Of a stretch of 54,246 nucleotides of DNA, positions 1-12,201 are shown one piece after another (positions within the stretch are counted from its first letter, which is position 1; each line of letters begins with the position of its first letter). Both the position numbers and the translations under genes were made by a program. Under the pieces are notes generated by a model, which was given only the letters and a program-made list of their open reading frames with translations, had not been told where the DNA came from and did not search any database. Source of the stretch: a virus; the IMG/VR virus record IMGVR_UViG_3300034198_004256, positions 1 to 54,246 of that record. One strand, 5' to 3'.

Positions 1-1224
1 CTTGTTAAGAACACCTAAAACATCTTTTACTTTATCTAGTTTTGTGCTGATGTCGTCTAATTGCTTATAGTCGTTTTCACCTAGACCGAGTTCTTTAACT
101 TTCTTTTGACCTTCTGCGTCTTCAGCTTTAAGCTCCTGTTCCTTTTCTGCGGCCTCTTGATTTAATTCTTTTAATCTATCTTTAAGCTCTGCCTGTTCTG
201 TTTCGTCGGCAGATGCCATTTTAGCTTTTGCTACCTCCATTGAACTGTCAACTCTAGCTCTAGATAAAACTTTCTTTAAGTAGTTAGAAACTGCCATACC
301 TTCTGCTTCATCATCGATTTCTTTTGCAGCTTCATCTGCAGCATCCATCTTCTTTTGTATAGTATCTTCAAACTTTTCGATATTATCTTTAAACTTTTCT
401 TTGAATTTAGCTATTTGATCGCCTTTCATACCTTTATCTTTAAGTTGGGCGATCTTTTCATCCAACTCTTCGTTCTTTTTAGCGATCATTTCTTGAGCTT
501 TAGTCTCGGCTTGTGCAGCTTTTACTTTAAGGTCTGTAGCTTTCTTTACAGTCTTTTTGATTTTAGGTCTTCTAAATAAGAAGTCGATAATTATATTAGT
601 CTCTTCAGCAGCCTCTTGTATCATAGCTTCAGTTAATTCAACCTCTTTATTTGATACACCTTCCTCTTCGCCAACTAATTTCTCGCCATCTTTCTCGTCT
701 TCCTTAGCCGGTTCACCCATTTTCATTATCTCGTCTTCAATTTCCTTGAAGCTAGCATCAATATCTTTACCGAAACCTTCGATATCTATTTTAATACCAA
801 ATTCATCATCAGTAGCAGGCATCTCTTCGATTTCAGCTTTGTCTTCTGGACCATGGGCAGCTTTCTTTACTTCAGCAGATTCCTCTACATCATCATCGTC
901 ATCGTCATCATCGTCGTCACCCATGTCTTCTTTATTATCGGTTGATGCCATGTTATCTTCAACTTCCTCTTCATCGTCTTCAGGCATATTCGCCAGCTCA
1001 TCTTCATTCTCTAAGAACTCAGAATAAGATTTGATTGCTTGATATTCTAAAATAGAGACTACTCTCGTGCCTTCAGTATAGGCTTGATACGCTTCAAATA
1101 AAGCAAGATCTACATGTGGGATTGTTTCAGTGTTTTCATCAGAAAAACTTTCAAATACCGGTTTAACACCATTTGACTTACATTTTGCAATATAGGTATC
1201 AAAAACTGGAATAGTAATTTTCAT
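1..1224 (-). CDS. Acidic helical protein, probable prohead core component (3' end outside window)
   Basis: An open frame runs from an ATG at 1224 to the window edge with no stop (408 codons visible), so the gene is truncated here. The N-terminus (MKITIPVFDT) resembles capsid-targeting leaders elsewhere in this window. A PVFE/S site follows at residues 22-26, matching the putative gp21 cleavage motif. Residues 72-145 are strongly acidic, with a run of ten Asp at 103-112. From about 190 on the sequence is rich in Lys, Glu, Ala and Gln and looks helical or coiled-coil. It lies directly downstream of gp23, behind a terminator. An acidic helical protein with a maturation site next to the capsid gene suggests a prohead core or scaffold protein (gp22-like role). 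That is inference; I see no clear homology to T4 gp22. Confidence 0.6.
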   Translation of the reverse strand, partial: MKITIPVFDTYIAKCKSNGVKPVFESFSDENTETIPHVDLALFEAYQAYTEGTRVVSILEYQAIKSYSEFLENEDELANMPEDDEEEVEDNMASTDNKEDMGDDDDDDDDDDVEESAEVKKAAHGPEDKAEIEEMPATDDEFGIKIDIEGFGKDIDASFKEIEDEIMKMGEPAKEDEKDGEKLVGEEEGVSNKEVELTEAMIQEAAEETNIIIDFLFRRPKIKKTVKKATDLKVKAAQAETKAQEMIAKKNEELDEKIAQLKDKGMKGDQIAKFKEKFKDNIEKFEDTIQKKMDAADEAAKEIDDEAEGMAVSNYLKKVLSRARVDSSMEVAKAKMASADETEQAELKDRLKELNQEAAEKEQELKAEDAEGQKKVKELGLGENDYKQLDDISTKLDKVKDVLGVLNK

Positions 1225-1321: not shown

Positions 1322-3082
1322 TTAGATCATTGCATATTGACCGAAGTTAATACCAAGCGTGATGTAGTAGATTTGCGGGAAGAAACCAGCTTCTACTAGA
1401 GCATAACGTGATTTAACTGCGATTTTTGGAGCCATTGTACCTTCTGCGATAGTTTGTACAGACTCTGCCATCAAGTAAGGCATGAATACCAAACCTGGAG
1501 AGTTAGCATCACCTTTTCTACCGATACAGATACGTGTGTCAGTCCATGCCATGTTAGGATCAACATAGATGTTAACACCTGCGATAGAACCGATTGGGTA
1601 AAGTGAACCAGCAGCTTGACTTACTGTGTTGCTAAGTGGGTAAGGTACGAAACCAGCGATGTCTTGTAGAGCTGAAGCAACTTGACCGTTTGTAACAGCG
1701 AAGTTAGCAGCACCACGACGACCGCGGATTGCGATAAGGTTAGCAGCAGCCAAGATCTTACTCATAATCTTACGTTGTAGTGTACCGCTGTTATCACCGC
1801 TGGTAGGAACAACTGAAGTTGTAGTAATAGAGATATTGTTGTTGCTGTATGCACCTTTACCTAGTGCGATAGCAGTTGTTGTAGATGTAGCCGCAATGTA
1901 CAGGTTAAGGTTAGTACCATCGATACTGTTAACTTGTTGAGCGTTTGTAGCACCTAGACGGAACAATCTTTCAAGAATGTTCTTGTTGATAGTTTGAGTC
2001 AATTCATTGATAAGAACTGCTTCAACTTGAGCAACTGCATCGATACCATATTGCTTAAGGTCTTGTACTTGTTCACGAGTTACAGCAGCTGCAACTTGTA
2101 CAGTGCTAGCAGCAACTGACTTGTTGAACAATTGTAGACCCATTAGGTTCTCCTTAGTAGATTCACCTTCTTCTCTCAAATATGGATCGTTAGATGTCAT
2201 ATCACCTTCTAAGAAACCGCGACCTGAGAAACCAGAGATGTGATCTTCTAGAGCCTTAACCAATTCTGGTGTAGCTTGTGTATCAGCGATATCACCTGTG
2301 TTCAAAGCATCACCTGAAGTAGAACTTACAATATACCAAGTATTTGCAGAGCTAAATACATCAGCTAGTGTGTAAGATGATGATGTTAGGTTACCAGTGC
2401 TATAGTTTTGTGGCCAAACAGCAGATGTTTCTTCAGCAGTTTCAACATAGAACATTGCATAACCATCAATACGTGAACGACCAATAAAAGTTAATTTATA
2501 AGGTACGACCTCACCTGAAGATGGAATAGAGTTGTTGTTACTGATGTAGAACACCTCATTAGCTACAGGCTCATAAGTAAAGAAATCATAAAGATCGGCT
2601 TTAATTGTGATAGGAGCTGTACGACCGTCTGCACCACCTAGACCGTTAACCGCTTGAGAAGGATCTGCAAAAGCACCACCTGCATAAGGGAAGTCAAGGT
2701 AAGTTAACATACCGAATGGTCCACCCATTGGTACTACTGGAACAAGGTCTAGACCTACAGTTTGAGCAGCAACTTGCATAGCAAGTGGAAGTAAGCTGAA
2801 TGGCTTATCACCTGAACCTGCGGTTTGTGCTGCGAAGTCAACGTTAAGACCAGGAGCACCAGGTGCAAATACTGGACCCATGCCTGGAACGTTCATACCT
2901 GGATTCATGTGAACGTAGTTGTATACGCTTTCGTTCAACATACCAGAGTCTTCTGCTAGTTTGTGGAAGTGGCAATACTTCGACATCCACTCAAGCTTGT
3001 TGGTATCGTGAATACCAGTTGCGCTTTCGATGATTGGAGCCCATGTAGCTTTAACTTCCGCTTCGTTAATCATTTGTAACAT
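1322..3082 (-). CDS. 23: Major capsid protein (T4 gp23-like)
   Basis: A 586-residue protein forming the head shell, close in size to T4 gp23 (521). It follows portal and protease in T4 order. The charged N-terminal segment ends in MLNE/S (residues 48-52), the position and type of site where T4 gp21 trims gp23; removal would leave a mature chain starting at about Ser52. Right after this comes NPGMNVPGMGP (60-70), which is nearly repeated in the gene at 22642-23082. Later segments (residues 440-586) have the Ala/Gly-rich capsid-fold look seen in T4-like capsids, including an IRGRRGAAN stretch. The start is ATG 3082; an in-frame ATG at 3073 is an alternative. The leader is A-rich without Shine-Dalgarno. 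Identification rests on context, size and the maturation site. Confidence 0.9.
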   Translation of the reverse strand: MLQMINEAEVKATWAPIIESATGIHDTNKLEWMSKYCHFHKLAEDSGMLNESVYNYVHMNPGMNVPGMGPVFAPGAPGLNVDFAAQTAGSGDKPFSLLPLAMQVAAQTVGLDLVPVVPMGGPFGMLTYLDFPYAGGAFADPSQAVNGLGGADGRTAPITIKADLYDFFTYEPVANEVFYISNNNSIPSSGEVVPYKLTFIGRSRIDGYAMFYVETAEETSAVWPQNYSTGNLTSSSYTLADVFSSANTWYIVSSTSGDALNTGDIADTQATPELVKALEDHISGFSGRGFLEGDMTSNDPYLREEGESTKENLMGLQLFNKSVAASTVQVAAAVTREQVQDLKQYGIDAVAQVEAVLINELTQTINKNILERLFRLGATNAQQVNSIDGTNLNLYIAATSTTTAIALGKGAYSNNNISITTTSVVPTSGDNSGTLQRKIMSKILAAANLIAIRGRRGAANFAVTNGQVASALQDIAGFVPYPLSNTVSQAAGSLYPIGSIAGVNIYVDPNMAWTDTRICIGRKGDANSPGLVFMPYLMAESVQTIAEGTMAPKIAVKSRYALVEAGFFPQIYYITLGINFGQYAMI

Positions 3083-3116: not shown

Positions 3117-4736
3117 TTATTTCTTGGTGTATTTTGCAAATCTGCCCTCTAGCTGAGACTTAAAACCTTCTAGATATTCATTATTTACTGCAGATTTCTC
3201 ATCAGCTGCTGCAACCTTAGACTCATTGATACGCTCAAGTTGAACTTGAGAATTTCTCAAATCTCTGGTTGACCAGAAATTAGCAATTAAGTAATCAGTT
3301 GAAAGATTGTAACGAGTAGACTCTACAATAATTTCATTTTTTCTAGATTCAGATAGTTTAGACCATTTCTCTATGTATTCATTAGGCATATGCTTAATGA
3401 AAGCTGGAGTATTATCTACTACCTCGGTTTTTACGCTCTCATTAATTGGTTGTGCGTCACCATTGTTTCCTGCTGTTTGCTTCTGAGCAGATTCGATTAA
3501 AAGTTGTAGTTTTTCAGAAATAGTCTTCTTATAGTCAACATTTTCTGTAACAGTATTATTAGTTGGTGCTGAAGTATTGTTATTAGCAATTTGATCTTCC
3601 TCATTTACACCAGTTAGTCTTTTATTTAGTTTATCTAGATTCTCACCTATATAGTTACTATAACCACCGACAGTTTCTAGATTTTCTTTTAGATAATCAG
3701 CGAACTTCACTACATTGTTTAGACCTTCTGTTAGATAATCATTGTGCTGTGCTAACTTATCCATGTTCTCAGAAAGATAGTTAGAGAACTCAATAATCTT
3801 CTCTGACTTTTCTGCGATTGACTCCGTGTACTGAATACCTTGATCGGCCTTTTCAGCTACATAGTTCATGTACTTCTCCATGTTATTAACACCTTCAACA
3901 ATATGATCGTTGTGTGTAATTACATTATCAAGATTCTCAGCTAAGAAATTAGTATAGCCATGAAGTTCATTTACCTTTTCTGCGATATGCTCAGCATATT
4001 TAACAACACCTTCATTAGCATTGTTATTTGTAATTGATTCTTTAACAGAGCTAAGTTGCTCATGTAATTTAGCCATTTCGGTAGCTAAGTATTGCGTGTA
4101 CTTATTAAAGTCCTCATTCTTGATATAATCAGACATGCTATTTGGAGAATTATTTTCTATTATGTTATATTTATCGTAATCAAAATTGCCAGGTAGCTCA
4201 AAAAGCTGTACGTCACTATCAGCATCTAAACCGAATGACTCGTTTACTCTTTTAAGTTCTGCGTTCTCAAATCCAGGATCTGCTACTAGGTCATAGGTAA
4301 AAAGCTTCTTGATCTTAACGTGACCATTGCTTTCTACTACACCTGCAGCTCTGCTTGAAATATGGATAGGAACACCGGCATCTACTAAAGCTTTAGCTTC
4401 ACGGCCAGCAGAAGTGTTAAGTAGTCTAATACGACCTCTTACTTGCTTACTGTTCTGATCATACTCAAGATTTTCAATAACGTGTGAAGCATTCTTAAGA
4501 GATATGTCAAAGTTTGAAGGATGATCTAACTCACCTAAAAGTTTACCACTTTTAATTTTTTCCTGTAAAGACTTGATCTGAGGTACATATTCACTCTCGT
4601 CATAGATGCGGTTATTCTTGTTCTTAACGCCAATTTCGCCGAAAACACCTTCTAAAACGTATTCGCCACCCTCGTTTTGAAAGGAAAGCTCGTTACTAGA
4701 ACGCTCTACTACTAATAAGTATTGATTATTTGCCAT
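3117..4736 (-). CDS. 21: Prohead maturation protease with long repeat tail (T4 gp21-like)
   Basis: A 539-residue protein, against about 212 in T4. Residues 1-170 are the herpesvirus-assemblin-type serine protease domain of gp21: GELDHPSN with the candidate catalytic His at 72, and HISSRAAG with the candidate Ser at 127/128. Then comes a tail with one isolated repeat (about 213-226), nine uninterrupted 14-residue repeats (247-372), a polar linker and a conserved-looking C-terminal helical region. RVNE/S, PINE/S and RINE/S match the putative cleavage motif, so self-processing is likely. I chose ATG 4736; an in-frame TTG at 4751 would add five residues, but the ATG has the usual A-rich leader. 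No separate gp22 scaffold gene is seen between portal and capsid, so the tail may do that job (inference). Confidence 0.9.
   Translation of the reverse strand: MANNQYLLVVERSSNELSFQNEGGEYVLEGVFGEIGVKNKNNRIYDESEYVPQIKSLQEKIKSGKLLGELDHPSNFDISLKNASHVIENLEYDQNSKQVRGRIRLLNTSAGREAKALVDAGVPIHISSRAAGVVESNGHVKIKKLFTYDLVADPGFENAELKRVNESFGLDADSDVQLFELPGNFDYDKYNIIENNSPNSMSDYIKNEDFNKYTQYLATEMAKLHEQLSSVKESITNNNANEGVVKYAEHIAEKVNELHGYTNFLAENLDNVITHNDHIVEGVNNMEKYMNYVAEKADQGIQYTESIAEKSEKIIEFSNYLSENMDKLAQHNDYLTEGLNNVVKFADYLKENLETVGGYSNYIGENLDKLNKRLTGVNEEDQIANNNTSAPTNNTVTENVDYKKTISEKLQLLIESAQKQTAGNNGDAQPINESVKTEVVDNTPAFIKHMPNEYIEKWSKLSESRKNEIIVESTRYNLSTDYLIANFWSTRDLRNSQVQLERINESKVAAADEKSAVNNEYLEGFKSQLEGRFAKYTKK
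3621..3998 (-). repeat. Nine tandem 14-residue repeats inside gp21
   Basis: Nine consecutive units of exactly 14 residues, of the form [Y/F/H]-x-x-[Y/F/H/S]-[I/L/V]-x-E-[N/K/G]-x-[D/N/E]-x-x-x-x. Examples are YTNFLAENLDNVIT, FSNYLSENMDKLAQ and YSNYIGENLDKLNK. Spacing is perfect at protein level but the DNA copies have diverged. A 14-residue period is two heptads, consistent with a continuous coiled coil. Confidence 0.9.
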
Positions 4737-4758
4737 ATTTATGTTGCGCAATTTTTTG

Positions 4759-4764
4759 TATATA
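4759..4764 (-). promoter_or_regulatory. TATATA element upstream of gp21, candidate late promoter
   Basis: TATATA on the minus strand, 22 bases before the gp21 ATG in the 55-base gap after gp20. It has the same core as the elements near 1253 and 9708. The context suits a late promoter, but no mapped start supports it. Confidence 0.25.
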
Positions 4765-4791
4765 TTTCATGTTTGGGGTATTTCTACGGGA

Positions 4792-6390
4792 TTAGATCCC
4801 TAGACCTCCAAGACCGAGATCGTCTCCTCCGCCTTCTTCAGCCTTTTTCTTCTTTTCTGCTTCTTTATCCTCTTTGGTTTTTAGGTTTTGAGCTAGATCG
4901 CTAGGATCCATTTTCAAATACTTTTTAACTAACCAATCTAGATCAAAGTATGGGATGTCATTCATGTTCTCGTCTGTCTCTACTAGATTATCTTTAAGTG
5001 CACTAATAAAGTCTAGGCGCTTTTGCATAATCTCCATTGTCTTTAATTCGTCGAACATATTATCTTTATTGTACTGAACTGAGATCATTGACTTAAGATT
5101 TAAGTCTTTCTGGAGTTCAGGGAATTTAAGACATACTTGAATGTAAAGTGGTTTAACAAGAAGTTCTTGGAAAGATGAACGTAATCTATTGATGAACTTA
5201 CTAAATTTAATCTCTTCTCTGATAAGACCTTCTGCAGTCATTTCGTATGTAGCAGGGCTGTCTTTATCGAAACGGCTGAATGGAATTTTAGAAGCCAACT
5301 TCAATTTATCATGGAAGTATTTAAGTGCGTCAGTATCGCTAAGATCTGGACCGTCATTTGCAAGAGTTTCAATTTCAGGTTGCTCGCCATCTTTAGAAGG
5401 TAACCAGTATTCTTTGTTGAAGCTCATCATTGGTTTACCGTTTACATGCATTGAACCTGAATCAAAATCAAAGTCAACAATCTCACGGTAGTTATTCATT
5501 AGCTGACCAAGTGATTGACGTGCTCTTGTTTTAGATTTACCACCTACTGGGATTAAGAATTTCATTCTATATGAAGCGTTCATTGTAGCCCAGATAACTC
5601 TTGTATGCTCCATGATACGTAGAAGATTGAAGGCTCTGACAAGGCGCTCTACGTAAGATACTCTTTCGTTTGTGGCGACTGATGAATAAGAGAGATAGAT
5701 TACTTGTGAATCGTAAAGCTTTCTTTGTTTAACTGGATCGTTCTTATGTTGATACCAGATTTTCTTATTCGTCTCTTTATCGACAGCAGGCATCAGGGAA
5801 ACTGGATCAATTTCTTTGAAACCAATAATCTCAGACTGATCGTCATTATAGATAATTTCAAATGATAAGTAGCCGTCAATCAACCATTTGCGGAAATAAT
5901 ACCAACCTGATTGGTCTTGAGTAAAACCAAAGTATTGATAGATTTGATTGTATGCTGTAACAATATATTTTTGAACGTCTTCAGATAGACCTAAATGTGA
6001 TGCATCTGGATACGCAAAATAGTTTTTACTATCATATACAACGGCCTCGTCGCATAATGTATCTAGAATATCTTCGATTTCATCTTGAGTAGCGAACTTT
6101 CTAAGCTCTATTCTTTTCTGCGGATATTGTTGTATGAAAAAACTGATACTCTTTTTAAGAGTTGTATCAGCCATTGATAATGCTGCGAATGGGTACCAGT
6201 AGTCTTCATTTTCTAGACCGTACGGGTTAATCATGGTATAACCGAAACGATCCTCTGTAACACCAATTGCTTGCGAGTTACGGATAATCATATCGTCATA
6301 CTTCATCCCTAAACTACTAAGATTCTGTAACGATTTTGAAATCGAGAATCTTCTACTAAAGGGTCCAAATCTGTCTAGAAATCCTGCCAT
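4792..6390 (-). CDS. 20: Portal protein (T4 gp20-like)
   Basis: A 532-residue protein (T4 gp20: 524) that forms the dodecameric vertex ring for DNA packaging and nucleates prohead assembly. The T4 pattern is followed throughout: an N-terminal CDEAVVYDSKN region; a WYYFRKWLIDGYLSFEIIY segment; IDPVSLMPAVDKET; a central LVRAFNLLRIMEHTRVIW helix; NKEYWLPSKDGEQPEIETLAND (matching the T4 'EDYWLQRRDGK...VDTLPG' region); and a C-terminal EEIKFSKFINRLRSSFQELLVKPL stretch. The tail is Lys/Glu-rich and ends Gly-rich. It heads the portal-protease-capsid series in T4 order. The leader is A-rich without Shine-Dalgarno. Confidence 0.93.
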   Translation of the reverse strand: MAGFLDRFGPFSRRFSISKSLQNLSSLGMKYDDMIIRNSQAIGVTEDRFGYTMINPYGLENEDYWYPFAALSMADTTLKKSISFFIQQYPQKRIELRKFATQDEIEDILDTLCDEAVVYDSKNYFAYPDASHLGLSEDVQKYIVTAYNQIYQYFGFTQDQSGWYYFRKWLIDGYLSFEIIYNDDQSEIIGFKEIDPVSLMPAVDKETNKKIWYQHKNDPVKQRKLYDSQVIYLSYSSVATNERVSYVERLVRAFNLLRIMEHTRVIWATMNASYRMKFLIPVGGKSKTRARQSLGQLMNNYREIVDFDFDSGSMHVNGKPMMSFNKEYWLPSKDGEQPEIETLANDGPDLSDTDALKYFHDKLKLASKIPFSRFDKDSPATYEMTAEGLIREEIKFSKFINRLRSSFQELLVKPLYIQVCLKFPELQKDLNLKSMISVQYNKDNMFDELKTMEIMQKRLDFISALKDNLVETDENMNDIPYFDLDWLVKKYLKMDPSDLAQNLKTKEDKEAEKKKKAEEGGGDDLGLGGLGI

Positions 6391-8037: not shown

Positions 8038-9687
8038 TTAAAGAAGTGTATTAAATTCTTTCTGGAATTTTTCGATTTCTTCAGTAAGAAGATTGTGTGC
8101 CTCAGTAATATATTCATTCTTATTATCTAATTTACCTAGATTATTACGCTCTTCCTTAAGGAAGTTAATTCTATCAAGTAAATCATTTTTCTTTGATTCT
8201 ACTACTCTTTGTGTTTTAATTTCTTCAGACAACAGATCTTCAACAAGTGGTGTTATATCATAATTGATAAACTCTTTTACTATTTCAACCGCCTTTGTAG
8301 CATTTTCAACTTTGAAAAACTCATTTAAAGCCATTGCTTTGTTTATCTTATTAATGTAGATACTTTCTCCGATTCTCATGATATTAGCACTTAAACCTTT
8401 CTTATGTCTATGTTCAATGCTGTTTACGAAATCAAGTTCTACAAATTTGTCAGCGTGCTCATAAGCTGCTACTAGCAAATCTGTTTTATGCATTTCATTT
8501 AGATCAAAATGACATGTTGATACTAGAAGATTTTTAAGCTGTGACTTTTCACTGAATGCTAATTCGCGACCATCTACAAAAAAGTTTCTACCGTTTTCAT
8601 TTAGTTGAATTTCATATGTGTGCTTACCTTTATAGAAGGTCATTTTGTTTTCAGAAAATTTAGCATTCTCTTCTACAGCAATCATTGTAAGATAAGCTGC
8701 TCCGATTTGACGGGCATCAATTTTAGAAATTTGACCGTCATGTAATTTGAAAGTAGAACCTGATACGTGGAATACATGACCACCTTCATTTTCTATTACT
8801 GGAGAAAATTTCTTAACTACCGAATGCTCAGTTGTTGAATTACCGGTAATAGTTAAACTGTTAACGTGCTCAACGATAGCTTTAATCTCTGGGATCCATG
8901 TATGTGAAGCTAATTTATACTTAACAGCTTCTCTGATTTCAGATTCAGAAAGACCCATAAGCTCTTCCATTACTGGATACGCTTGAGAGAAATATGCATT
9001 TCTATTAGAAGTCTTTAACTTAGTATAAGCTTCGTCTAATTGAATTGTAATTACATTTTCGTTTAAGAATGCTGTAACTTCATTTATTACTTTAGATATA
9101 GGCTCCATCCACATGTAATCTTTAGTCTCGTTGATTAGACCTTTTGCGATTACAGGGTGTGAGTAATTAGAACTATTTGCAATTGTCATATACTTTTCAA
9201 TAATTGACTTAAGTGAAGATGTATGAAATGAGCTAGACATGCCTTCAGTAATAGTCTTAAGATCTTTTAATTTACCCTTAAGATCTAGTTTCATCTCTGT
9301 ATTCTTAGAGTTATCTTTCATTGATTTTGCCTTTTGTTTACCAATAAGCATGTTAATGTTTTCAGAAAGTTCTTTTACCGTCTTCTTAAGAGACTCATCT
9401 TCTGATGAAAGGGCATCTAATTTATTTAATACCTCTTTGCTGGCTTCTAATTCTTCTTTTAGTTCCATTTTTATAACTGTATTTTGTGTTTGTTTTGGTA
9501 TATAGCATTCAATAGCTTCATAAGCCTTTTGTTTATCTACACCGATCATATTAAGAACGTTATAGATAGTTTCTTGATTCTTACCTGACTCATGGAGTAC
9601 TAAGATAAGGTCTCTAAGATTATTTGACCCAAAGTTATCAGCTGGGTTAGTATATGCTAAATTTAAGCCTTCGTTTGTATTAGACAT
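8038..9687 (-). CDS. Large helical protein of unknown function in the head gene block
   Basis: A 549-residue protein that I do not recognise. It is Lys/Glu-rich, with likely coiled coils at about 75-145 and 500-549. A more mixed, beta-containing middle lies around 295-400 (GGHVFHVSGSTFKLHDGQ... KHTYEIQLNENGRNFFVDG). Several sites resemble the putative maturation motif: LINE/T near 189, ITE/GM near 148 and YITE/A near the end. The gene lies between gp15-like and gp55 genes and has its own terminator and an upstream TATATA. Size, composition and place suggest a virion or prohead core protein; this is inference. Confidence 0.65.
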   Translation of the reverse strand: MSNTNEGLNLAYTNPADNFGSNNLRDLILVLHESGKNQETIYNVLNMIGVDKQKAYEAIECYIPKQTQNTVIKMELKEELEASKEVLNKLDALSSEDESLKKTVKELSENINMLIGKQKAKSMKDNSKNTEMKLDLKGKLKDLKTITEGMSSSFHTSSLKSIIEKYMTIANSSNYSHPVIAKGLINETKDYMWMEPISKVINEVTAFLNENVITIQLDEAYTKLKTSNRNAYFSQAYPVMEELMGLSESEIREAVKYKLASHTWIPEIKAIVEHVNSLTITGNSTTEHSVVKKFSPVIENEGGHVFHVSGSTFKLHDGQISKIDARQIGAAYLTMIAVEENAKFSENKMTFYKGKHTYEIQLNENGRNFFVDGRELAFSEKSQLKNLLVSTCHFDLNEMHKTDLLVAAYEHADKFVELDFVNSIEHRHKKGLSANIMRIGESIYINKINKAMALNEFFKVENATKAVEIVKEFINYDITPLVEDLLSEEIKTQRVVESKKNDLLDRINFLKEERNNLGKLDNKNEYITEAHNLLTEEIEKFQKEFNTLL

Positions 9688-10527: not shown

Positions 10528-12201
10528 CTAGTTGATTGTTTCAACTGTAAACTTGCTGAAGCCGTTGTCCTTGTATATTTCTATCTTCTTATCGAATATC
10601 TCCTGGGGCAGTACTGTGTGGTTGATAACAAAAGTATTAAGGTTATTCTCCTTAATGACCTTATTTAATATCTTAAGTATACTATAGACACCATCTGCAT
10701 CAACTGAGCTAAATATCTCATCTAGGAATAAGATGTTCAATTGCGGAAATCTTAACTTCAGTAATTTGATTATGGCAATGACTATGATAAAGTCGGCCTT
10801 CTTTCTTTCACCAGTACTTAAAGTTTTTGGATTAACGTCTTCACCTAGGTGGTTGATTATACAATTGAATTTATCGTCAAATCTTATATGGAAGCTTAAG
10901 TGCATTTCAGAAACCATTTGGGCTATTGACGTGTTAAGACCTGGTAGAATTGTCTTAACTGCCATGTTCTTAACGCCGTCTTCACCTAATATCATTTCCA
11001 TTAACGACATGAAGTTGTCTTCGTCGTATCTTGTCATTGCAACAAGATTCTTTTTAGTCTTATTGTTTTTGAACTCATCTACAAGACTTGTAAGTTGAGC
11101 AAACTGACCAGTTGAATTGATACCGTTTGACAAAGAAACAAGCTCAGCTTTTATAGAATTGATTCTAGAGTTTAGGTCCCATATTTTACTTGATACAGTG
11201 CTCTGTTTCTTTCTGTTTTCATTAAATTCAGATTTAAGATTGTTGATATCCTCTTGTATCTGAGATATTACAGATGGTAATGAAACCGCTATATCTTCAT
11301 TTTGTTGCTTTATATGTAAATGGATGCCTTCGTCTAGAGGTGATTCACATGTTGGGCACTTTTTGTTTTCGTATAGCTTAAGTTTCCTTTTTGCATTATT
11401 TAGAACCTCATTGTTCTCACTTAGCTCGCTATTCTTAGATGAGATCTTGTCTTCTATCTCGTCATGTAATGTGGTTAACTTAGAACTAGCATCATCAAGC
11501 TTTTTCTTATCGGCAGAAAGAGCAATTGCCTCTTTTTTAAGTGAATCAATCTTTTCTTTATTTTCATCCGCAGATATTTTCTCAAGCTCGTCAATCTTAT
11601 TCAATGTAGAAGTGATACTGGCATCGATTGCTCTCAACTCATCTTCGATTGATTTAAGATCGTCTTTGATTTCCTTTTTAATCTCTTTGACACGGTTGTA
11701 CATGTCATTGATAATAGAGAAACCAAATAATTTATCCACGATGTTTCGCTTGTCCTTTGGGCTCATCGTTAAAAATGACTTAAAGTCATTTACAGATAAT
11801 ATGATAATGTTCTTGAATACATGATAAGGTATTTCGTAAACCTCATTTTCAAGATAGTCTTGCACATTACTCATACCTGCTTGGTCTAATTCTAAACCAT
11901 CTACAGAAGCTGTAAACAACTTTGGGGCAATACCTCTTTCAACTACTACTGATTTGTTACCACACTTCAATTTAATACGGACCCAAAGGTTCTTGTTGAT
12001 CCTGTTAGGAAGATCAGGTAGATTAAAGTCTTCTAGCTTACCATACAGCCCATATATGATGGCGTTTGCTATAGTAGATTTACCATAACCGTTACCACCT
12101 AGAACCAGATATAAAGAGCTTTTGTTGTTGTCGAACTCTAGTGTCTGTATCTGATTGCCGTATGATGCAAAATTCTTAAATGATATCTCTTCTATTCTCA
12201 T
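10528..12201 (-). CDS. 46: Recombination nuclease ATPase subunit (T4 gp46, Rad50-like)
   Basis: A 557-residue SMC/Rad50-type ATPase, matching T4 gp46 (560). It has Walker A GGNGYGKST (35-43), a long coiled coil interrupted by the zinc-hook CPTC (282-285), ABC signature LSTGERKK, and Walker B NILFLDEIFSSVD near the C-terminus. With gp47 it resects DNA ends for recombination-dependent replication and degrades host DNA. The start overlaps the gp47 stop by four bases, so the two are translationally coupled. Confidence 0.96.
   Translation of the reverse strand: MRIEEISFKNFASYGNQIQTLEFDNNKSSLYLVLGGNGYGKSTIANAIIYGLYGKLEDFNLPDLPNRINKNLWVRIKLKCGNKSVVVERGIAPKLFTASVDGLELDQAGMSNVQDYLENEVYEIPYHVFKNIIILSVNDFKSFLTMSPKDKRNIVDKLFGFSIINDMYNRVKEIKKEIKDDLKSIEDELRAIDASITSTLNKIDELEKISADENKEKIDSLKKEAIALSADKKKLDDASSKLTTLHDEIEDKISSKNSELSENNEVLNNAKRKLKLYENKKCPTCESPLDEGIHLHIKQQNEDIAVSLPSVISQIQEDINNLKSEFNENRKKQSTVSSKIWDLNSRINSIKAELVSLSNGINSTGQFAQLTSLVDEFKNNKTKKNLVAMTRYDEDNFMSLMEMILGEDGVKNMAVKTILPGLNTSIAQMVSEMHLSFHIRFDDKFNCIINHLGEDVNPKTLSTGERKKADFIIVIAIIKLLKLRFPQLNILFLDEIFSSVDADGVYSILKILNKVIKENNLNTFVINHTVLPQEIFDKKIEIYKDNGFSKFTVETIN

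Follow-up and report, generated by a model that had tools for sequence, protein, structure and literature searches.

Phage T4 gp21 and the herpesvirus proteases share a fold, and C/Nu3 of phage lambda is a nested case. In herpesvirus UL26/UL26.5 (assemblin and assembly protein), an N-terminal protease is followed by a release site and by an in-frame nested scaffold that shares the 3′ end of the gene, and a further site lies close to the C-terminus; the nested product is shorter than pUL26C by 21 residues, and binding to the capsid protein occurs through the C-terminus (PMC4498786). T4 gp21 degrades the core, and the peptides leave the prohead (PMC9958956). In phage P2, one protein of 284 aa, gpO, joins an N-terminal protease to a C-terminal scaffold (PMC7552001). 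The protease of the giant phage SPN3US, gp245, carries a self-removed C-terminal extension of 64 residues, a propeptide that is proposed to direct gp245 to the core; another, abundant protein of this phage is described as a scaffold candidate (PMC7411985).

The window, meaning the whole 54,246-nucleotide stretch of DNA analysed here, contains a gene with likenesses to each of these systems. The UL26/UL26.5 layout would recur in it, with the differences that the lineage is another one, that a 14-residue array is present, that the promoter signals are of the late-phage kind, and that the nesting is inferred from sequence. Compared to T4, it has the gp21 fold and family membership and a TATAAATA-type motif, which in T4 stands before the gene 22 start at the end of gene 21. 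With P2 gpO it would share the one-protein arrangement; gpO belongs to another phage lineage, and no such array is described in the excerpt seen. The nearest unfused counterpart is found in Sphingomonas phage PAU, where a short protease (gp151) and a coiled-coil-like protein (gp155) with the same C-terminal domain precede the major capsid protein (MCP), but as separate genes and with the C-terminal domain in another frame than gp155. There are good grounds, though comparative ones, for reading the window gene as a protease (residues 1-166) fused to a head scaffold (about residues 201-539) that would also be made alone from an internal start. This nested start was overlooked by an earlier sequence-only reading of the same DNA and is, we think, the most interesting part.

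The protease gene and its neighbours

The locus and the features of the encoded protein are as follows.

4792..6390, minus strand: portal protein, gp20 family, directly upstream of the protease gene (Pfam Portal_T4, E 2e-70)
3120..4736, stop codon 3117-3119, minus strand: head maturation protease gene with likely fused scaffold, 539 aa (phrog_207, Pfam S77)
1322..3082, minus strand: MCP, gp23 family, directly downstream (Pfam Gp23, E 3e-31)
4239..4736, minus strand: gp21-type protease domain, residues 1-166 (alignment and T4 gp21 structure match)
4236..4250, minus strand: RVNE/S, residues 163-167, where the protease domain ends and release is proposed to occur
4059..4100, minus strand: separate 14-residue unit, residues 213-226 (found by a later, iterated profile)
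3621..3998, minus strand: nine in-phase 14-residue units, residues 247-372 (unit profile scores)
3435..3446, minus strand: INE/S after the array, residues 431-434, within PINE/S at 430-434 (motif scan)
3258..3407, minus strand: conserved C-terminal helical domain, about residues 444-493 (alignment, pLDDT about 85)
3219..3230, minus strand: INE/S near the C-terminus, residues 503-506, within RINE/S at 502-506 and 34 residues before the C-terminus
3126..3182, minus strand: predicted C-terminal helix, residues 519-537 (AlphaFold2 model)

The gene lies on the minus strand, a point that the sequence-only reading did not mention, and the plus strand of the interval is rich in stop codons. Its product scores 43.9 bits against Pfam S77 (cut-off 27), which places it in the T4 gp21-type family, and matches phrog_207 with an E value of 4e-37. 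Moreover, its AlphaFold2 model aligns with the T4 gp21 structure 5jbl over 133 residues (Z 14.9, rmsd 2.6). H72, S127 and S128, which we take to be the catalytic residues, are invariant in the 45 rows of the alignment. These matches confirm the window protein as a T4 gp21-type head maturation protease, the identity proposed by the sequence-only reading, and activity on the MCP and core is predicted from NE/S-type motifs. The herpesvirus proteases 2wpo and 4v07 give weak fold matches, with Z values of 4.7-4.9 that fall within the range of unrelated rows. Second, shorter frames that match phrog_207 were seen at 11437-11790 of a 735-kb genome (W04) and at 154858-155151 of a 462-kb genome (W01).

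Scans of IMG/VR yielded at least 564 and at least 309 encoding stretches, from each of which 80 were kept, and the protease frame is present in 181 of 182 sources. In the phage collection, Lak phages and huge phages from metagenomes (462-735 kb) give the best matches. All three relative-bearing MAG contigs are binned as Bacteroidota, which is consistent with starts that have no clear Shine-Dalgarno sequence. The 14-residue array is carried by 130 of the 134 unique complete proteins analysed, rows that are related by descent and so do not give independent counts; the four exceptions comprise an ordinary T4-like protein and three from Lak phages. The fused gene with its array is a real and widespread feature, and it provides a concrete candidate for a built-in scaffold in genomes of 462-735 kb and in hundreds of metagenomic contigs.

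The source record consists only of the 54,246-bp fragment (IMGVR_UViG_3300034198_004256); the searches for gp22 covered relatives. In the window itself, no gene lies in the portal-protease or protease-MCP interval, which agrees with the earlier statement that gp22 is missing between portal and capsid; the length contrast drawn there, 539 aa compared to 212 aa in T4 gp21, also stands. An MCP gene lies downstream in 168 loci, five of which are T4-like controls (L013, L014, L015, L018 and L177), the other 163 being the group of interest. The protease-MCP interval has no gap above 300 bp or ORF of at least 80 aa in 156 of these 163 loci. The gap exceeds 300 bp in the other seven, four of which have a small ORF of 94-206 aa there, and its median outside the T4 set is 85 bp. 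In 13 further loci the MCP was not seen, mostly because the locus end cuts it off; in three Lak loci it is located elsewhere. In all 79 T4-like loci with room, in contrast, protease (212-288 aa) and gp22 are two genes, the second next after the first, whereas the window group has one gene with a tail of no detectable gp22 homology.

The gp22 profile phrog_237 had no match in the seven whole records of huge phages and Lak phages, while the T4 control was positive. Likewise, gp22 was found in none of 22 larger fragments of the group (3/3 controls positive) and in none of five cultured relatives (T4 positive). This profile does detect distant gp22 in cyanophage, Caulobacter, Vibrio and Rhizobium phages; as the search is profile-based, a gp22 that has diverged beyond the reach of the profile would escape it. 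The tail, as the 3′ half of the fused gene, occupies the gp22 position between protease and MCP. According to the sequence-only reading, a separate gp22 gene and a missing tail in close relatives would speak against a built-in scaffold; every close relative found has the tail. The tail was also considered as a detectable gp22 homologue and rejected (no phrog_237 match; hhalign probability 0.2-1.2%), and a remote kinship is possible.

Two other frames of the window were noted. An acidic, D/E/K-rich ORF of at least 407 aa (1-1224, minus strand) directly follows the MCP gene and is truncated by the window end; it has no PHROG or Pfam match. A 549-aa protein (8038-9687, minus strand) without a convincing family match is encoded upstream of a sigma-like gene, and an ORF of similar size takes its place in L009 and L001.

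The repeat array and the C-terminal domain

The tail is longer than 330 aa, and its similarity at a lag of 14 residues (0.66) was reached by 0 of 5000 shuffles. Array units start at residues 247, 261 and so on to 359 and end at 372, and each of them scores above the 99% level of shuffled proteins. They had been described as nine exact repeats with one separate unit. The number, the exact unit length and the separate unit at residues 213-226 are borne out, but the unit sequences are not exact, with a mean pairwise identity of 27% (range 7-57%), and TRF reports no DNA tandem repeat at the array. The predicted secondary structure is a long helix at low confidence, with AlphaFold2 pLDDT block means of 37-54. 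No description of the array or of the nested start was found in a limited literature search.

It had been suggested that the array is a molecular ruler, in which the number of 14-residue units sets the dimensions of the core and head. Uniform unit number in one cluster, with a run of nine in 33 of 33 proteins, would fit such a role, as would the rise of total units with genome size among five complete array-bearing genomes (rho 0.74), although this trend is not significant (n=5, p=0.15) and genome size is a stand-in for head size. However, relatives with about 99% identity over the aligned N-terminal part have unit numbers that differ by one, a single cluster of 61 proteins spans runs of 11-16, and the fused proteins of Lak (540-550 kb), PTm1, pT24 and MA9V-2 have no 14-residue array. 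The ruler is thus unsupported and appears very unlikely. Across the array-bearing proteins, the longest in-phase run is 9 in 40, 12 in 35, 13 in 13 and 14 in 20, and between 4 and 16 in the others. The array is probably a lineage-specific, expandable spacer and not a strict ruler.

Beyond the array lies the conserved C-terminal domain, whose profile (A9) finds matches in 13 of 15 records, including PAU and every fused protease tested, among them those of Lak, Tenacibaculum phages PTm1 and pT24, and Chryseobacterium phage MA9V-2; it finds none in T4 or Flavobacterium phage MaF61. Foldseek returned no PDB match to this domain at E ≤0.001, a result that does not establish a new fold, and two BFVD matches below 0.001, one of them an uncharacterised viral protein and the other a prohead protease of the T4 type. 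At 3120-3560 (minus strand), the window protein is without a module of about 45 residues that precedes the domain in its closest relatives, L009-L012.

The stretch between the protease and the C-terminal domain is a 14-residue array in the window group, acidic in Lak, and about 900 residues long in MA9V-2. In the PTm1 tail (L262 3728-5422) a 16-residue periodicity, thus a different repeat length, is found at the same place. Since the fused proteins differ in this stretch, the spacer is their variable part. The MA9V-2 head protease (L265 1554-5177) has 1207 aa, and its residues 464-576 match phrog_858, annotated as a starvation-inducible transcriptional regulator.

In PAU the A9 matches fall outside the protease gene gp151 (246 aa) and just before the MCP. 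They come right after gp155, a 248-aa, E-rich, coiled-coil-like protein with LNE/S sites, which is preceded by a TATACATATA-type motif; the PAU record applies the label “scaffolding” to gp152 and not to gp155. The gp155 frame comes to a stop at nine consecutive A, after which the conserved domain continues in another frame (L264 4362-5347), through either a sequencing error or a frameshift. The occurrence of the C-terminal domain apart from the protease, at the place of gp22, gives the strongest support for a protease-scaffold fusion in the window group, which is judged likely from these comparisons. The earlier interpretation is partly supported: its built-in scaffold gains support (no gp22 found in the relatives searched, a tail in every close relative found, and the split domain of PAU), and its ruler does not. 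Direct tests could use PAU (split) and Tenacibaculum phages PTm1 and pT24 (fused), all of which have named hosts.

Met201 and its upstream signals

Three further features of the window bear on separate expression of the tail.

4755..4768, minus strand: late-promoter-like motif GAAATATATACAAA, 32 nt ahead of the start of the full-length gene (score 9.3)
4162..4175, minus strand: late-promoter-like motif GATAAATATAACAT within the gene, 39 nt upstream of the Met201 codon (modest score, 5.4)
4134..4136, minus strand: Met201 codon, proposed start of a nested, scaffold-only product of 339 aa, residues 201-539 (comparative signals)

A Met occupies the Met201 column in 127 of the 130 array proteins, and all 130 have a Met in the linker. 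Residues 170-200 of this linker are mostly variable, and the Met is its only near-invariant residue. No Met is found at the corresponding place in Tenacibaculum phages PTm1 and pT24.

Because the phage's own starts mostly have no Shine-Dalgarno sequence, base composition was used in place of a Shine-Dalgarno test at the internal Met. The 21 nt before Met201 have A and G fractions of 0.57 and 0.08, compared to 0.60 and 0.06 at true starts and 0.39 and 0.19 at other internal Met codons. The median start-like score is 0.24 at Met201, 6.36 at true starts and -8.52 at other Met codons, and among internal Met codons Met201 scores highest in 76 of 130 proteins, where 14 are expected. With the amino acids held fixed, the codons before Met201 are start-like: the mean z is 1.11, with 85% of the values above zero, and the controls range from -0.57 to 0.52. 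For the 20 codons that precede Met201, synonymous variation was expressed as a percentile within the gene in five disjoint clusters. It is in the lowest 5% in four of them (0.02, 0.047, 0.02 and 0.01), the cluster of L003 being only weakly low (0.047) and that of L023 showing no clear constraint (0.231); the combined p is 2e-4. In an overlapping-group test, the 10 codons before Met201 are unconstrained in the L003 clade (0.90).

The TATATA motif of late genes mostly lies about 24-42 nt before the start, and it is found upstream of 114 of 116 unique protease, 85 of 94 portal and 57 of 120 MCP starts. The best promoter match of the coding sequence falls 14-75 nt before Met201 in 61 of 130 proteins, compared to 4.1 expected, and elsewhere in the other 69. 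In the window, GATAAATATAACAT is the best match of the whole protease coding sequence, and the internal motif GATAAATATAACATAA is identical in all seven close relatives. As proof in the window, the internal promoter alone was rejected, as a score of 5.4 is too common: motifs scoring at least 5 number 39 on the coding strand and 31 on the other. A high score (5.57) was obtained for the promoter control at offset -600 and is read as over-extended ORF starts taking in the real promoter. In T4 gene 22, TATAAATAT is found at the place that matches the internal motif, and GTTATAAATATT at the same relative place. The TATAAATA motif also occurs in the cyanophage and Vibrio controls and is absent from the Caulobacter and Rhizobium controls.

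These signals could also be understood as a late promoter that serves only the capsid gene downstream, with Met201 kept for structure and no nested protein made. Between the internal motif (4175) and the motif of the acidic ORF (1262), the window has no motif scoring at least 5, so that the MCP may be transcribed from the internal motif. However, the start-like composition and the synonymous bias lie directly before the Met and not only at the motif, and the Met stands out in an otherwise variable linker. A Met kept for structure would require no biased synonymous codons, which counts against this explanation, and it is regarded as quite unlikely. A scaffold-only product is probably also made from the internal start, on the strength of these comparative signals.

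It is also conceivable that the true scaffold is another gene, such as the acidic ORF or the 549-aa ORF, and that the tail acts as a propeptide. SPN3US provides the precedent, with its targeting propeptide and its separate scaffold candidate (PMC7411985). The acidic ORF may encode a core protein and is the chief rival for the scaffold role, being D/E/K-rich and having its own strong promoter-like motif at 1262; yet it follows the MCP and is not at the gp22 place, and no PHROG match connects it to a known family. Furthermore, the window tail far exceeds 64 residues, and a propeptide needs no start of its own, whereas the internal Met is conserved here together with a start-like context and constraint. 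The PAU domain outside the protease gene also argues against a mere propeptide. A scaffold encoded elsewhere is therefore considered unlikely.

Proposed assembly pathway and cleavage sites

In the preferred reading, a protease-scaffold fusion with a nested scaffold, the internal start at Met201 and a late promoter 30-60 nt upstream would cause the scaffold half to be made alone as well. It is proposed that, through this separate synthesis, the scaffold exceeds the protease. The shared tail would carry full-length copies into the core, whose rods would be built from the helical array, with the C-terminal end attaching to the capsid or portal. Once the shell has closed, the protease would release itself at RVNE/S; its cleavage at LNE/S would trim the MCP, and its cuts in the scaffold at INE/S, and perhaps at [ILV]xE about once per array unit, would clear room for DNA. 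By analogy with T4, the same degradation of the core is inferred here.

A broader and more tentative proposal, given slightly less than even credence, is that the lineage of the biggest phages (up to 735 kb) has a UL26/UL26.5-like nested scaffold with its own late promoter and start, that it arose from a T4-type 21-22 fusion without loss of inner expression, and that [ILV]xE in each array unit would allow cutting into small peptides. Finding such a layout in a T4-type lineage would be relevant to the question of how genes for protease and scaffold fuse or split across tailed phages and herpesviruses.

Cleavage motifs are distributed in keeping with this pathway. RVNE/S, PINE/S and RINE/S, said earlier to bracket the tail, were located at residues 163-167, 430-434 and 502-506. 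NE at residues 165-166 is present in 130/130 proteins and S167 in 121/130, sites of the NE/S type bracket the array in 102/130, and NE[SANGT] occurs within the last 70 residues of 125/130. The window MCP translation has LNE/S at residues 49-52, and [ILV]NE[SANG] is found within residues 21-80 of 89 of 117 MCP N-termini. Together, the sites that bracket the array and those in the MCP N-terminus make destruction of the tail on maturation plausible. Compared to shuffled sequences, [ILV]NE[SANG] is enriched after the array (1.77 per post-array region, 0.12 in shuffles), as is [ILV]xE within it (1.01 per array unit, 0.43 in shuffles). The distance from the protease NE/S to the inner start is 28 residues in the median and about 35 in the window.
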